A stretch of 64,000 nucleotides of DNA from Xylanimonas oleitrophica (GTDB lineage Bacteria > Actinomycetota > Actinomycetes > Actinomycetales > Cellulomonadaceae): assembly GCF_003244315.1 (NCBI RefSeq), contig NZ_QKWH01000005.1:1-64000 (forward strand), in the 5' to 3' direction. The translations under genes were made by a program, and so were the position numbers. Shown piece by piece: positions 18,217-24,339 of the stretch; the stretch's first letter is position 1; each line of letters begins with the position of its first letter. The notes beneath the pieces are model-generated. The model saw nothing but the letters and a program-made list of their open reading frames with translations. It ran no database searches and was not told the origin of the DNA.

Positions 18217-18285
18217 CGTCACCACCTCCCTGGTGGTGCCCCACGCTACCGACCCGGCGGGCGCGGCGTCGGGGAGAATGGTGCG

Positions 18286-19521
18286 GTGCGCTGCCACCAC
18301 TACGACGCCGGACGGTGCCACTCCTGCACCCTCCTGGAGGTCGCGTACCCCACCCAGGTCGCGGACAAGGAGCGGCACGTGCGCGAGCTGCTCGAGCCGG
18401 TGCTGGGCCCGGCCGCCGCGGCCGTCGAGTGGCTGCCCCCGGTGGAGAGCGTCGAGGGCGGGTTCCGCAACAAGGGCAAGATGGTGGTCACGGGCACGGT
18501 CGAGGCCCCGGTGCTCGGCATCCTGGGCGCCCAGCCGATGGCCGACATGGAGTCCGGGTTCGCCCACGCGGGCGTCGACCTCACCGACTGCCCGCTGTAC
18601 CCGCCGATCCTCCAGGCGGCGTTCGGCCCGCTGGGCGAGCTGATCACGCGCGCCAGGCTCCAGCCGTACGACCTCACGCCCGCCCGCGGTCGCGTCACGC
18701 CGCGCGACGCCGCCCGGCGCGGGGAGCTGAAGCACCTGCTGGTGACGATGTCGCCCGACGGCGAGCTGCTGGTGCGCCTGGTGGTGCGGTCCCAGGAGCC
18801 GGTGGCCCGGCTGCGCAAGCACCTGCCGTGGCTCCAGGAGGCGCTGCCGAACCTGGCGGTGCTCAGCGTCAACGTCCAGCCGGAGCACAAGGCCGTGCTG
18901 GAGGGCGACCTCGAGATCGTGCTCACCGAGCGGCAGACGCTCCCCATGCGGCTCGACGGCGTGACCCTGCACCTGCGCCCGCAGAGCTTCTTCCAGACCA
19001 ACACCGAGGTGGCCGCGGCCCTCTACCGCCAGGCCGTGGCCTGGGTCGACGAGGTGGCGCCCGCCAGCCTGTGGGACCTGTACTGCGGCGTCGGCGGGTT
19101 CGCCCTGCACTGCGCGGCCCCGGGCCGGCAGGTGACGGGCATCGAGATCTCCGCCGAGGCCGTGGCCAGCGCCGAGGTCAGCCGGGGCGAGATCGCGGCG
19201 GCGTCACCGGCCGGGGCCGACGCCATGGCCGGCGTCCGGTTCGCTGCGGGCGACGCCACCGCGTTCGCGCTCGCGGCGGCGCCCGACGACGTGCCCGAGC
19301 TCGTGATCGTCAACCCGCCCCGGCGCGGCGTCGGGCCGGAGCTCGCCGCCTGGCTCGAGGCGTCCGGCGCGCGGCACGTCCTGTACTCGAGCTGCAACGC
19401 CGTCACGCTCGCCAAGGACCTCGAGCACATGCCGTCGCTGCGGCCCGTGCGCGCCCGCCTGCTCGACATGTTCCCGCAGACCCGCCACTACGAGGTGCTG
19501 ACCCTGCTCGAACGAGTCTGA
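18286..19521 (+). CDS. rlmC: 23S rRNA (uracil-C5)-methyltransferase, RlmC type
   Basis: 411 residues. An N-terminal 4Fe-4S site is formed by Cys3, Cys11 and Cys14 plus Cys102, the spacing of RumB/RlmC. The SAM domain contains QSFFQTNTEVA, DLYCGVGGFALHCA and NPPRRGVG. The catalytic Cys is in LYSSCNAVTLAKDL. These proteins make m5U at position 747 of 23S rRNA in E. coli; the actinobacterial target is inferred. GTG 18286 is chosen because the first Fe-S Cys must be near the N-terminus and GAGAAT lies 6 nt upstream as a -10. Confidence 0.87.
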   Translation: MRCHHYDAGRCHSCTLLEVAYPTQVADKERHVRELLEPVLGPAAAAVEWLPPVESVEGGFRNKGKMVVTGTVEAPVLGILGAQPMADMESGFAHAGVDLTDCPLYPPILQAAFGPLGELITRARLQPYDLTPARGRVTPRDAARRGELKHLLVTMSPDGELLVRLVVRSQEPVARLRKHLPWLQEALPNLAVLSVNVQPEHKAVLEGDLEIVLTERQTLPMRLDGVTLHLRPQSFFQTNTEVAAALYRQAVAWVDEVAPASLWDLYCGVGGFALHCAAPGRQVTGIEISAEAVASAEVSRGEIAAASPAGADAMAGVRFAAGDATAFALAAAPDDVPELVIVNPPRRGVGPELAAWLEASGARHVLYSSCNAVTLAKDLEHMPSLRPVRARLLDMFPQTRHYEVLTLLERV

Positions 19522-19566
19522 GCGCTCGGCGGCGGCCCCGGGGCGACCTCGGGCGGTCCCGCCGGG

Positions 19567-21096
19567 TCAGCCGGCCGGGACCAGCGTGACCGCCGTGCCC
19601 ACCGGCACCGCGGTGTGCAGGTGCACGTGGGTGGTCCAGGCGTTGCAGGAGACGCGCAGGTTCGCGACCCGCCAGGCACCGTCCCTCCCTGGCCAGACGG
19701 CGCCCGCCACCCGGCCCGCGCCGCCCGTGAGCACCTGGCCCCCGACCTCCACGTGATACACCGTGCCGTCCGGTACCCGGTTCCCCAGCCACCCCGGCAC
19801 GCACGAGGCGGGCACGGTGAGCGGCAGCCGCGTCGTCGTCGGGCCGTCCGGCGCAGGACCTGCGGGCGGAGCCGACGGAGACGGCTGCGGCTGCGCGGGC
19901 TGCGACGGCGTCGGCTGCGCTGTCGGCGCAGCCGGCACCTCGGGGCCGGGCGCCGGCGCGGGCGGAGCGGCGGGCTGCGCGTCCGGCAGCTCCGCAGGCG
20001 CCGGACCGGCCGGCGGCTCCGCGAGCGCCGGGGCCCCCGGATCGGCCGCCTGAGGCGCCTCGGGGAGCGGCTGCGGCTGTGCGGGCCTCCCCTCACCGCG
20101 ACCGCCCGCGGAGCCCCCCGCCGGCTGGGGCACGACGGCGGCCTCCCCCGGGGCCTCGGCGGGCAGGTCCTGCGGGCCGGGGGCCTCCTCCTCGGCGGGC
20201 GCGGCGGACGGCTCCGACAGGGCACCGGCCGGCGGCTCCGACGCTGTGCCCTGCGCCCCGCCCCCCGGAGGCGGCGCCGGGGCCTGCGACGAGGCCGGTC
20301 CCGGCGCGGACGCCGCGGGCCGGGACGGCGGGTCGTCGTCCAGCACCACCGCCGCGGCCACCGCGCCGGCCGCCACGACCGCCACCACGCCCGCGCCCAC
20401 CACGAGCGACAGGCGACGCCCCGACGACGAGAGCGCGCGCACGGCGGCCCCGGCCCGGTCGCCCGCCTCCGAGAGCAGCACGCCGACCGACCCGATGGCT
20501 GCGAGCGGCCCCGCCGCGGTGGCCGGGGCCGCCATCGTGCCGTAGACCATCGGGCCACCCAGGGCCAGCCCGGTGGAGCCCGCGAGCAGCACGGGCGCCG
20601 CGTCCCGCAGCGACCACGCCGCCTGCCGCACGTCGATGAAGGCGCGCATGCAGTCCTGGCAGCCGAAGAGGTGGTCCTCGAGCACCCGCCGGGCCTGCGG
20701 TGCGACACGGTGGCGCACGTAGTCGCCCAGCGCACCGCGAGTGGTGGCGCACGCCTGCGGGGCCGACGCCGCCGCACGGGCGTGCGCGGCGGCGAACCCG
20801 GCGGACAGGGCACGCTCGGCCTCGCGCAGCCCCCGGCGCACCGACCCGAGCGGCAGCCCGAGGGCCCCGGCCACCTCGGCGTCGCTGCGGCCGTCCACGT
20901 GCCGCAGCCACAGCAGGCGCTGGTGGTCGTGGTGCAGGCCCGCGAGCGCCGTGCGCACCAGGTCGGGCTCCGCGGACCCGGGCTCGCCGGGAGCGGTGCC
21001 GGGCAGGAGCCGGCGCATGCGCTCGAGCGCGTCGTCGACGGCGCGCTCGCCCGTGCGGAGCCGCCCGTGCGCGACGTCGTCCTGCGTGGTGCTCAC
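19567..21096 (-). CDS. Sigma-region-4-like domain fused to zinc-finger anti-sigma and extracellular Pro/Ala-rich domain
   Basis: 509 residues. Residues ~45-98 form a sigma-70 region-4 helix-turn-helix (LLWLRHVDGRSDAEVAGALG, LGSVRRGLREAERAL). No region 2 is present before it, in any frame upstream. A zf-HC2 anti-sigma zinc finger follows: Cys116 and His142-x3-Cys146-x2-Cys149. A hydrophobic stretch at ~168-210 and a clear membrane helix at ~228-252 come next, then a ~160-residue Pro/Ala/Glu-rich extracellular stalk and a C-terminal ~90-residue domain with two Cys (TVPASCVPGWLG, NLRVSCNAWTT). It looks like a membrane-bound regulator combining promoter-reading and anti-sigma parts. GTG start with GGGGGAAC upstream. 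Confidence 0.78.
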   Translation of the reverse strand: MSTTQDDVAHGRLRTGERAVDDALERMRRLLPGTAPGEPGSAEPDLVRTALAGLHHDHQRLLWLRHVDGRSDAEVAGALGLPLGSVRRGLREAERALSAGFAAAHARAAASAPQACATTRGALGDYVRHRVAPQARRVLEDHLFGCQDCMRAFIDVRQAAWSLRDAAPVLLAGSTGLALGGPMVYGTMAAPATAAGPLAAIGSVGVLLSEAGDRAGAAVRALSSSGRRLSLVVGAGVVAVVAAGAVAAAVVLDDDPPSRPAASAPGPASSQAPAPPPGGGAQGTASEPPAGALSEPSAAPAEEEAPGPQDLPAEAPGEAAVVPQPAGGSAGGRGEGRPAQPQPLPEAPQAADPGAPALAEPPAGPAPAELPDAQPAAPPAPAPGPEVPAAPTAQPTPSQPAQPQPSPSAPPAGPAPDGPTTTRLPLTVPASCVPGWLGNRVPDGTVYHVEVGGQVLTGGAGRVAGAVWPGRDGAWRVANLRVSCNAWTTHVHLHTAVPVGTAVTLVPAG

Positions 21097-21294
21097 CGTT
21101 CCCCCGTCCGCCGGCGCTCATCCTGGGCGCCGGATCTGCGGCCACATGATGCCACCCGCGGCTCGGGGCCGGGAATGATCCCGCGAACAGGCACGGAGCG
21201 CCACCGGAAGCGCACCTCACCTGCATCGACGTGCGAACACCACAGACCCGTGCCAGTGTCAAGGGGTCGGTATCCGACAGAAGGAGGAATCTCC

Positions 21295-21558
21295 GTGAGC
21301 ATCATCGGATGGATCATTCTTGGTCTGCTTGCGGGCGCCATCGCCCGCGCGATCCTGCCGGGCAAGCAGGCCGGCGGCTGGATCGCCACCCTGCTCGTCG
21401 GCGTCGTCGGCGCACTTCTCGGCGGTTGGCTCGGCAGCCTGCTGTTCAACGCTCCGCTCGAGAACTTCTTCTCGATCCAGACCTGGCTCCTGGCGATCGG
21501 TGGCTCGATCATCGTGCTGCTGATCTGGGGCGCCATCACGGGACGCCGCAGGGCGTGA
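21295..21558 (+). CDS. GlsB/YeaQ/YmgE-family stress membrane protein
   Basis: 87 residues, three membrane helices with the family pattern GWIILGLLAGAIARAILPGKQ, GWIATLLVGVVGALLGGWLG and a final helix before ITGRRRA. Annotated in databases as transglycosylase-associated protein; function in stress is poorly defined. The GTG start has AAGGAGG 7 nt upstream. Single gene with its own terminator. Confidence 0.9.
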   Translation: MSIIGWIILGLLAGAIARAILPGKQAGGWIATLLVGVVGALLGGWLGSLLFNAPLENFFSIQTWLLAIGGSIIVLLIWGAITGRRRA

Positions 21559-21580
21559 CCGTCCAGTAAGCACCTCTCCT

Positions 21581-21641
21581 CGTCGTGGGCGGGAGGAGTG
21601 CCGGGACCCTGAGGGTTGCGGCACGCCTCCCGCCCACGACG
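21581..21641. terminator. Bidirectional terminator between glsB-like gene and aldo-keto reductase
   Basis: 16-bp perfect outer stem with a nested smaller hairpin (TGCCG/CGGCA) inside the 29-nt loop, between convergent genes. Confidence 0.8.
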
Positions 21642-21652
21642 TCGTCGGGGTG

Positions 21653-22714
21653 TCAGCGGTGGGTGATCTCACCACCGCGGAACGCGTTCCACAGGTCGAT
21701 CCCGGAGTCGACGGCGTGCTCGTCGATCGTGGCGAGCTCGTCGGCGGAGAACCCCGGGTTCCGCAGGGCGCCCACGTTGTCCTCGAGCTGCCGCACGGAC
21801 GAGGCCCCCACGAGCACGGACGTCACCCGCTCGTGCCGCAGCGCCCACGCCAGCGCCATCTGCGCGAGCGACTGGCCGCGCCCCGCGGCGATCTCGTTCA
21901 GCGCGCGCACGTGGCCCAGCGCCTCGTCGTTCAGCATCCCCTCGCCCAGCGACTTGCCCTGCGTGGCGCGCGAGCCCTCGGGCACACCGTGCAGGTACTT
22001 GTCGGTGAGCATCCCCTGGGCGAGCGGGGAGAACGCGATGCACCCGGCCCCCACCTCGGCGAGCGTGTCGAGCAGCCCGTCCGTCTCGATCCACCGGTTG
22101 AGCATCGAGTAGCTGGGCTGGTGGATGAGCAGCGGCGTGCCCAGGTCGGCGAGGATCCGCGCGGCCTCGCGGGTCTGCTGCGGGCTGTAGGAGGAGATGC
22201 CGGCGTACAGCGCCCGGCCCGACTGCACGGCGGTGTGCAGGGCGCCCATCGTCTCCTCGAGCGGTGTGGTGGGGTCGAACCGGTGGCTGTAGAAGATGTC
22301 CACGTAGTCCAGGCCCATCCGTGCGAGGGACTGGTCGAGCGAGGCGAGCAGGTACTTGCGCGAGCCGCCGCCCTGGCCGTAGGGGCCCGGCCACATGTCG
22401 TAGCCGGCCTTGGAGGAGATGACCAGCTCGTCGCGGTACGGGCGGAAGTCGCGGGCGAGGTGGTACCCGAAGTTCGTCTCCGCGGAGCCGTGGGGCGGGC
22501 CGTAGTTGTTCGCGAGGTCGAAGTGGGTGATCCCCAGGTCGAACGCGCGGCGCAGCACGGCCCGCTGGCGGTCCAGGGGGACGTCGTCACCGAAGTTGTG
22601 CCACAGGCCCAGCGAGATCGCGGGCAGGTCCAGGCCAGAGCGCCCGGTGCGGCGGTACGTCATGGAGCCGTCGTACCGGGCGGGGTCGGCTGCGTAGAGC
22701 GGGAGGGTCGACAT
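21653..22714 (-). CDS. Aldo-keto reductase, YghZ/MgrA type (L-glyceraldehyde 3-phosphate reductase-like)
   Basis: 353 residues, (beta/alpha)8 barrel. The catalytic tetrad is visible as Asp and Tyr in HFDLANNYGPP, Lys in VISSKAGYDMWPGP and His in DIFYSHRFD. The insert NNYGPPHGSAETNFG and YSMLNRWIE are typical of the YghZ group, which detoxifies L-GAP and methylglyoxal. NADPH-binding residues lie near GASSVRQLEDN. TAGGGT (minus strand, 22722-22727) lies 7 nt before the ATG, so the mRNA is probably leaderless. Confidence 0.87.
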   Translation of the reverse strand: MSTLPLYAADPARYDGSMTYRRTGRSGLDLPAISLGLWHNFGDDVPLDRQRAVLRRAFDLGITHFDLANNYGPPHGSAETNFGYHLARDFRPYRDELVISSKAGYDMWPGPYGQGGGSRKYLLASLDQSLARMGLDYVDIFYSHRFDPTTPLEETMGALHTAVQSGRALYAGISSYSPQQTREAARILADLGTPLLIHQPSYSMLNRWIETDGLLDTLAEVGAGCIAFSPLAQGMLTDKYLHGVPEGSRATQGKSLGEGMLNDEALGHVRALNEIAAGRGQSLAQMALAWALRHERVTSVLVGASSVRQLEDNVGALRNPGFSADELATIDEHAVDSGIDLWNAFRGGEITHR

Positions 22715-22791
22715 GCCCCTGACCCTAGCCCCGGCGGCCGTATCGATTCGACAGACGGCGCGCGAGCGGTCCACCACGCTCCGGGCACGGA

Positions 22792-22827
22792 GAGGCGCCC
22801 GCACCCAGGGGGTGGTGCGGGCGCCTC
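22792..22827. terminator. Terminator downstream of the CsbD gene
   Basis: 14-bp perfect stem with an 8-nt loop, 42 nt after the minus-strand csbD stop. Confidence 0.75.
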
Positions 22828-22869
22828 GATCCCGGGCCGGCGAGGGGCACGCCGGCCGACGGGGGAAGG

Positions 22870-23055
22870 TCAGCGACCGAACGCGTCGTCGGCGGCGTCC
22901 TTGGCCTTGTCGCCGGTCTGCTTGACGTTGGCGCCGGCCTGCTGGCCCTTGCCCTCCGCCTCCGTCTTCTCGTTGTCGGTCGCCTTGCCGAAGGCCTCCT
23001 TGGCCTTGCCCTGGAGCTCCTCGGCCTTGTGCTGCATCTTGTCACCGAGACCCAT
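22870..23055 (-). CDS. CsbD-family stress-response protein
   Basis: 61 residues, hydrophilic and helical (QHKAEELQGKAKEAFGKAT, DKAKDAADDAFGR), the usual CsbD size and composition. These abundant general-stress proteins have no known enzymatic role. ATG 23055 is chosen over GTG 23064 because GAAGGAG is well spaced only for the ATG. In this genome such a gene could belong to the stressosome output, but no sigma-B-type promoter was identified. Confidence 0.87.
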   Translation of the reverse strand: MGLGDKMQHKAEELQGKAKEAFGKATDNEKTEAEGKGQQAGANVKQTGDKAKDAADDAFGR

Positions 23056-23200
23056 GTCGCTCACTCCTTCAGCCGACGGCCGGTAGGCCGTCCTCGGGGT
23101 CCGCGGGCACCGTCTGCTCGAATGCCCCGCTGACTCCAGGGCATCACGGCAGCGCGGTCCTCGCAGCCCGAACGGCCGACGACCCGTGCCCCCGGTGGCA

Positions 23201-23227
23201 CCCGCTGCCCGGCACCCGGGCAGCGGG
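23201..23227. terminator. Terminator of the DDAH-OCD operon
   Basis: 12-bp perfect stem with a 3-nt loop, 9 nt past the minus-strand ornithine cyclodeaminase stop. The remaining bases of 23056-23235 hold nothing recognisable. Confidence 0.75.
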
Positions 23228-23235
23228 ACGCCCCC

Positions 23236-24339
23236 TCAGGCGAGCGACGGCTCGGCCGCCCGGCCGGCCGCCACCGCGGCGGCCGGGACGGTCGACCGGT
23301 CCGCCCCAGCCGCCACCACCAGCGAGAACAGGTCCTTGGGGTCGGCGGGCTCGGCCACGAGGTCGAGCTGCTGGAGCAGCACCGCACCCTCGGCGGTGCC
23401 CACCAGCTCGTCGCGCACCATGCGCAGCACCGTGAAGTCCTCGACGGCGAACCCGACCGAGTCGAACACGGTGATCTCCTGGGCGTCGCGCCGGCCCGGC
23501 GCCTGACCGGTGACCACGCGCCACAGCTCGGTGACGGGGAAGTCCGCCGGCTGCCGCTGGATCTCCCCCTCGACGCGCGTCTGCTCCTCCAGCTCCACGA
23601 ACACCGACGCCCGCTCCAGGATGCGCGGGTCCAGCTCCGTCTTGCCCGGGCAGTCGCCGCCGATGGCGTTGAGGTGCTGGCCGGGGACGACGTCGGCGTC
23701 GTGCAGCACCGTCGCGTTCTGCTTGTCGGCGGTGCAGGTGGTGACGACGTCGGCGCCCCGCACGGCGTCGGACGCGTCGTCGCACACGGTGACCTCGAAG
23801 CCGAGGGCTCGCGCGTTGCGCGCGAGCTTGGCCGCGGCGGCGGGGTCGACGTCGTGCACACGCAGGGTGGTGACGCCGAGCTCGGCACGCATGCCGAGCG
23901 CCTGGAACTCCGCCTGCGACCCGCAGCCCACGAGGGCGACCGTGCGAGCGCCCGACGGCGCCAGGTAGCGGGCGGCGAGAGCCGACGTCGCGTCGGTGCG
24001 CAGCGCGGTGAGGATCGTCATCTCGGCGAGGAACGACGGGTAGCCGTTGTGGACGTCGGCGAGCACGCCGAGCGCGGTGACGGTCTGGTAGCCGCGCACC
24101 GGGTTGAGGGGGTGGCCGTTGACCAGCTTGAAACCGTAGGTGGTGGCGTCCTGCGTCGGCATGAGCTCGATGACGCCGTCGCGCGAGTGCGAGGCGATGC
24201 GGGGACGCTTCTCGAGCTCGGGCCAGCGTGCGAAGTCACGCTCGAGCGCATCGGTGAGGGCCTTGATGACCTGCTCGGGGCCGCGGCGGGCCACCCAGCG
24301 GGCGGTGGAGGGGACGTCGAGGAACGGGACGGTGGTCAT
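23236..24339 (-). CDS. Ornithine cyclodeaminase family protein
   Basis: 367 residues of the OCD/mu-crystallin family. Substrate-binding elements appear near ELMPTQDATTYGFKLVNGHP, and the Rossmann NAD+ site is TVALVGCGSQAEFQALGM with HDVDPAAA. The C-terminal DSVGFAVEDF is also family-typical. OCD converts ornithine to proline and ammonia; related members act on other amino acids. The ATG overlaps the upstream hydrolase stop by 4 bp and has AAGGAGG. Paired with a guanidino hydrolase, it suggests arginine to ornithine to proline catabolism. Confidence 0.87.
   Translation of the reverse strand: MTTVPFLDVPSTARWVARRGPEQVIKALTDALERDFARWPELEKRPRIASHSRDGVIELMPTQDATTYGFKLVNGHPLNPVRGYQTVTALGVLADVHNGYPSFLAEMTILTALRTDATSALAARYLAPSGARTVALVGCGSQAEFQALGMRAELGVTTLRVHDVDPAAAAKLARNARALGFEVTVCDDASDAVRGADVVTTCTADKQNATVLHDADVVPGQHLNAIGGDCPGKTELDPRILERASVFVELEEQTRVEGEIQRQPADFPVTELWRVVTGQAPGRRDAQEITVFDSVGFAVEDFTVLRMVRDELVGTAEGAVLLQQLDLVAEPADPKDLFSLVVAAGADRSTVPAAAVAAGRAAEPSLA

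Follow-up and report, generated by a model that had tools for sequence, protein, structure and literature searches.

What can a protein do that joins the DNA-reading half of a sigma factor to an anti-sigma domain and a membrane anchor, and has no region 2 (sigma2)? The question is raised by a gene of Xylanimonas oleitrophica, located in the 64,000-nucleotide stretch of contig NZ_QKWH01000005.1 that was analysed as a whole and is called the window here. The original prediction described a sigma4-like helix-turn-helix (HTH), a zf-HC2 zinc finger, a membrane helix and about 250 extracellular residues in one polypeptide, and our analysis agrees with each of these parts (Table 1). The frame opens with a GTG codon. 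Sigma70_r4_2 (PF08281) matched residues 47–97 with an E-value of 6.2e-5 and 23.0 bits in the single-protein scan, which is just below the Pfam cut-off of 25.7 bits, and the match reached 27.4 bits, above the cut-off, in the genome search. The NCBIfam SigE-family model TIGR02983 covered residues 26–98 (E-value 2.9e-7). Sigma4 similarity, on which the prediction depended, was thus found with both Pfam and NCBIfam profiles, and the fold matches described below are to ECF sigma4 domains. The zf-HC2 match (residues 116–149) scored 23.6 in the Pfam scan against a cut-off of 22.2, and all four zinc ligands of the class I ZAS motif C...Hx3Cx2C are present (C116, H142, C146 and C149) and invariant across all aligned sequences. 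Hydropathy analysis gave a single strong hydrophobic segment at about residues 228–256, followed by a Pro/Ala-rich linker of about 157 residues (46 Pro and 41 Ala) and a beta-rich domain of about 92 residues. The all-beta model of this last domain gave no significant fold match, and two cysteines in it are common to the orthologues read from genus g10. No carbohydrate-binding module was matched by Pfam in the 509-residue protein.

Table 1. Features of the gene and its surroundings (positions in the window; residues of the encoded protein).
Feature	Position	Strand	Basis
Whole gene, sigma4-ZAS-TM-Pro/Ala linker-beta domain, 509 aa	19567..21096	-	ORF and profile scans
Residues 18–31, RAVDDALERMRRLL, aligning with the last sigma2 helix of sigma2-bearing relatives	21004..21045	-	Multiple alignment
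Sigma4 HTH domain, residues 47–97	20806..20958	-	PF08281, TIGR02983, fold matches
Recognition helix, residues 83–97	20806..20850	-	Alignment, E94 comparison
zf-HC2/ZAS anti-sigma domain, residues 116–149	20650..20751	-	Pfam, alignment
ZAS helix 4, MRAFIDVRQAAWSLRDA, residues 150–166	20599..20649	-	Conservation in clade
Transmembrane helix, about residues 229–252	20341..20412	-	Hydropathy
Pro/Ala-rich extracytoplasmic linker, residues 262–417	19846..20313	-	Composition
C-terminal all-beta domain, residues 418–509 (about 92 aa)	19570..19845	-	Low-confidence model, pLDDT 62
Promoter-like element upstream of the gene, conserved TGGCATCATG, extended -10 type	21145..21154	-	Orthologue upstream regions
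Divergent GlsB/YeaQ-like small membrane protein, synteny marker	21295..21558	+	ORF, synteny
Convergent RlmC/RumA-like methyltransferase, synteny marker	18259..19521	+	ORF, synteny

Region 2 was not found in the protein by the Pfam and NCBIfam scans, and the ECF profile TIGR02937 covered residues 45–97 only, not a complete ECF domain. A six-frame search of positions 19000–23500 with two sigma2 profiles, one of real sigma2 and one of the sigma2-like part of the relatives, also found no region 2, the best matches being below 3 bits. Region 2 is missing in the orthologous sequences too (24 in the tree, the window protein included), and the orthologues in genera g10 and g21, the latter including Isoptericola halalbus (L001), have the same domain layout. 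A hidden frameshift masking sigma2, an artefact that the original prediction had allowed for, is ruled out by the six-frame search, by the GC3, which is high along the full length of the gene (93% overall), by the gap of 198 bp between the gene start and the divergent glsB, and by the orthologues without region 2 in two other genera. From the alignment we infer that the last sigma2-like helix (AVDDALxRMR) is the sole part of sigma2 left in the clade of the window protein. Because region 2 was searched for and not found, we do not count the protein among the sigma factors. The view that it cannot be a working sigma factor holds for the protein on its own, and it is well supported by these comparisons that recognition of a -10 element and the usual engagement of the beta' clamp would be impossible for it, so that it would not be a sigma factor by itself.

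The origin of this protein can be read from its relatives. Across the order and the phylum the same core is part of larger proteins, of which nearly all have a complete sigma2; full sigma2-sigma4-ZAS-TM fusions of the ECF48/52/53 kind are common across Actinomycetota, and the window's own genome has two fusions of the full type, one in a frame of about 1430 codons (C3) and one in a frame of 740 codons (C25). In genera g3, g7 and g15, closer relatives form tandem pairs, B1 and B2. TIGR02937 spans sigma2 and sigma4 in the B1 copies (29–38 bits) and in L055 of genus g24 (44.3 bits, above the cut-off). It covers sigma4 alone in the B2 copy tested (L043), where sigma2 is degenerate, and it matches sigma4 alone in the orthologues of the window protein. 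These results are stronger evidence for sigma2 than a profile-profile comparison of the N-terminus of the relatives with real sigma2, which gave a probability of 31% and an E-value of 5e-4 and is weak by itself; a profile of the same N-terminus had no matches in the PDB. The gene order is glsB-B1-B2-methyltransferase in L043 and L046, with the methyltransferase side present also in L039 and L040, and a single region-2-less gene occupies the same place between glsB and the methyltransferase in the window, L001 and L004. In a tree calculated from sigma4 and ZAS (66 rows, 131 columns; SH-aLRT supports), the 24 region-2-less sequences lie on one side of a branch (98), with the B2 copies as their sister group (89); B1 branches further out, and the full fusions form a separate group (100). 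With so few columns, and with SH-aLRT as the measure of support, the inner forks are unsure. The sequence evidence gives good support to the reading of the protein as a derived, region-2-less one-component sigma-anti-sigma fusion that arose at one syntenic locus as sigma2 was eroded step by step, and the simplest history would be a single loss of sigma2 in the clade after prior degeneration. The domains of the fusion originally predicted stand, but the fusion is not an isolated case; rather, it is the end of an erosion series in which region 2 is full, recognisable and then degenerate.

Several other arrangements were observed among the relatives. L043, L039, L040 and L046 each hold an operon-like tandem pair of unequal sigma-ZAS membrane proteins, in which sigma2 is recognisable in one protein and degenerate in the other. 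Frames of 183–211 aa with sigma4 and ZAS and without sigma2 were seen at L066:476-1024 (+) and in L073 (minus-strand frame from 2595 of the reverse complement); both genera belong to the same family, and in each the short frame adjoins a full-length fusion, which suggests a separate loss of sigma2 elsewhere in the family. L062 and L069 of another family, f7, are sigma-ZAS fusions whose region 2, judged by eye, likewise seems degenerate. The B1-type sigma2-only fragments at G104:C4:53234-53446 and G122:C3:367679-367894 contain an in-frame TGA and are likely pseudogene pieces.

A protein that has lost sigma2 stepwise might simply be the functionless, decaying remains of a sigma-anti-sigma fusion, and in two genomes of the Isoptericola group an additional tandem copy (L041/L042) is indeed relaxed (dN/dS about 0.6). 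The main copy behaves otherwise. In all four close pairs, dN/dS was 0.07–0.21 for sigma4 and 0.06–0.32 for ZAS helix 4, as calculated with our own Nei-Gojobori code on short segments for which single values are rough. By this measure, sigma4, ZAS and ZAS helix 4 are under purifying selection in most close pairs. Together with the invariant zinc ligands, these low values argue against decay of the main copy, as does the conservation of the synteny and of a promoter-like element across genera. This element reads TTGCC (or TTGCA/TTGCG)-N17-18-TG(C/G)(G/C)ATCATG, with spacings read by eye, and is also present in L001, L003-L006, L009, L010, L015, L016, L018, L019, L026, L041 and L042; a looser form is found in L039, L040, L043 and L046, and the window's lineage keeps the TGGCATCATG part with a weak -35 part. 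We regard a functionless remnant as very unlikely.

Selection on sigma4 is also what would be expected of a membrane-tethered one-component transcription factor, in which the sigma4 HTH, freed from its ZAS by signal-induced proteolysis or a conformational change, would bind -35-like DNA and repress or activate transcription without serving as a sigma subunit. The predicted structure agrees with this to a certain extent. The AlphaFold model was built from a two-sequence alignment and has a pLDDT of 53 overall, with the HTH alone confident, and this HTH superposes best on ECF sigma4 structures, the top one being the sigma4 of SigL (3hug; 0.8 A over 56 residues; Z 8.6, 71 residues and 3.3 A in a second comparison). 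The DNA-bound sigma4 of RpoE is among the matches. Because the model is confident for the HTH only, it does not bear on the docking of sigma4 on ZAS. The recognition helix is still basic, with a net charge of about +2.8 to +2.9 at residues 87–92, compared with +1.2 in the full fusions and +3 in RpoE. To our knowledge, however, no lone ECF sigma4 is known to act as a regulator. In addition, R178 of RpoE contacts the -35 element (PMC7406223), and its equivalent, which is Arg or Lys in 26 of 27 full fusions, is Glu (E94) in all 37 sequences, region-2-poor or region-2-less, that make up the clade with its closest relatives. An arginine in ZAS, R120, accompanies it in 35 of these 37 sequences and in none of the full fusions. 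The joint occurrence of E94 and R120 counts as one evolutionary event, not as repeated covariation, and would fit a re-tuned sigma4-ZAS contact with weaker reading of the canonical -35 element. On this evidence a tethered DNA-binding regulator is possible but doubtful.

Two further roles depend on partners outside the protein. As a decoy for core polymerase, a free sigma4 would sit on the beta-flap tip and compete with sigma factors. The beta flap is the usual docking site of sigma4, and the hydrophobic core positions of the domain are conserved, but isolated sigma4 binds core weakly, the membrane anchor and the ZAS in cis would restrict access, and the beta-flap contacts are not singled out by any data here, so that we consider this role improbable. 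Of the roles offered in the original prediction, a one-component membrane regulator and a decoy binding a sigma factor or the polymerase both stay among the candidates, while the pure core-polymerase decoy gained no specific support. The protein might also be one half of a split sigma, with sigma2 supplied by a separate protein as in the SigO/RsoA precedent of Bacillus (PMC8103513). No dedicated sigma2-only partner gene was seen among the 15 sigma2 matches in the genome: 13 of them adjoin a sigma4 match in the same frame, the strongest (C22) was taken as the primary sigma from its score and frame length, and the remaining one, G000:C3:46418-46654, has no sigma4 in its open frame. This last match was rejected as a free sigma2 partner, since it looks frame-disrupted and its close relatives do not track the distribution of the protein. 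The split-sigma reading is therefore highly improbable. At the same place (L085/L107), an ECF-like gene adjoins a tRNA-like sequence, and its relatives elsewhere are in frames of ordinary ECF size. Around the gene itself, as had been predicted, no separate sigma gene is adjacent, although class I anti-sigma factors are usually co-encoded with one, and no adjacent-operon partner was found.

The reading that we prefer, with a probability of roughly 0.4, is a membrane-anchored sensor of the anti-sigma type, in which sigma4 would be the built-in client of ZAS and helix 4 would hold the sigma2 of another sigma factor in trans. Class I anti-sigma factors are known to grip sigma2 with helix 4 and to cover the DNA-reading face of sigma4 with helix 1 (PMC7406223). 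Helix 1 would thus hold the protein's own sigma4, and helix 4, having lost its partner in cis, may grip the sigma2 of another sigma factor. The extracytoplasmic part would receive a signal, and the hold on sigma2 would then be altered, either by a change of conformation or by intramembrane proteolysis of the kind suggested for ECF52 proteins, so that the partner sigma is freed or captured. The main reason for preferring the trans-acting role is that helix 4 outlives the sigma2 that it should grip. No other segment is as well conserved in the clade (75% mean identity versus 54–57% for sigma4 and ZAS), and helix 4 is 58–64% identical to the helix of copies that still have sigma2-derived sequence; in the order's full fusions, by contrast, it ranks last in conservation (30%). 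This conservation and the fixed charge reversal at E94, where the RpoE equivalent is a -35/anti-sigma contact residue, speak no less for anti-sigma action than for a DNA-binding regulator. Helix 4 could also be conserved for other causes, such as structure, a contact with sigma4 in cis or the link to the membrane. Against the anti-sigma mechanism count the lack of an adjacent partner sigma, the basic recognition helix, which fits DNA binding, and the lower conservation of sigma4 than of ZAS in the window's lineage (dN/dS 0.48 versus 0.13 for the window and L003, the only pair tested in that lineage and a distant one). More tentatively, the protein might be a membrane receptor in which sigma4 is an internal pseudo-client that controls the capture of other ECF sigma2 domains by its own anti-sigma domain, a cis/trans hybrid switch produced by the deletion of region 2. 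Because the polymerase-engaging half has been deleted and the DNA-reading and inhibitor halves are under selection, the protein probably controls other sigma factors or DNA and does not act as a sigma.

The described actinobacterial sigma-ZAS-TM fusions ECF48, ECF52 and ECF53 (PMC8999054), among them SCO4117, an ECF52 protein of Streptomyces coelicolor that activates genes (PMC5826349), share with the window protein the zf-HC2 ZAS, the TM helix and the Pro-rich extracytoplasmic part. They have a full ECF domain, whereas the window protein has no sigma2 and no carbohydrate-binding module recognised by Pfam; the likeness to ECF52 is one of domain layout, and relatedness in the tree covers the local full fusions only. 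As in the class I pairs RslA/SigL and RskA/SigK, an anti-sigma domain (zinc-binding in many, RslA included) is followed by a TM helix and an extracytoplasmic part, and the predicted sigma4 resembles that of SigL in the RslA complex; unlike RslA and RskA, the window protein has a sigma4 fused ahead of the anti-sigma domain and no cognate sigma gene adjoining. In the alphaproteobacterial anti-anti-sigma factor PhyR, too, a domain of sigma origin has ceased to initiate transcription and may act by protein contacts (PMC8103513). PhyR is soluble, with a sigma2-sigma4-like fold and a receiver domain, whereas the window protein has sigma4 alone with its own ZAS and TM helix, and the Pfam scan found no receiver domain in it. 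SigO/RsoA of Bacillus subtilis also includes a sigma4-bearing protein without sigma2 (PMC8103513), but SigO has a dedicated sigma2 partner and no anti-sigma fusion, and no partner was found for the window protein. Our literature search found no description of a region-2-less sigma4-ZAS fusion, though an earlier mention may exist.

The origin of the protein is explained, and its mechanism lies between a trans-acting anti-sigma switch, which we tentatively favour, and a tethered DNA-binding regulator, which is doubtful; its mode may be anti-sigma-like or pseudo-sigma-like. Sigma-anti-sigma fusions are proposed one-component sensors, and their regulation is poorly known. At this locus they form a domain-deletion series, in which sigma2 is present, degenerate or absent while sigma4 and the sigma2-gripping helix are conserved. 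Such a series pulls apart what each domain does, and it gives an example, open to experiment, of a sigma factor that has become a regulator.
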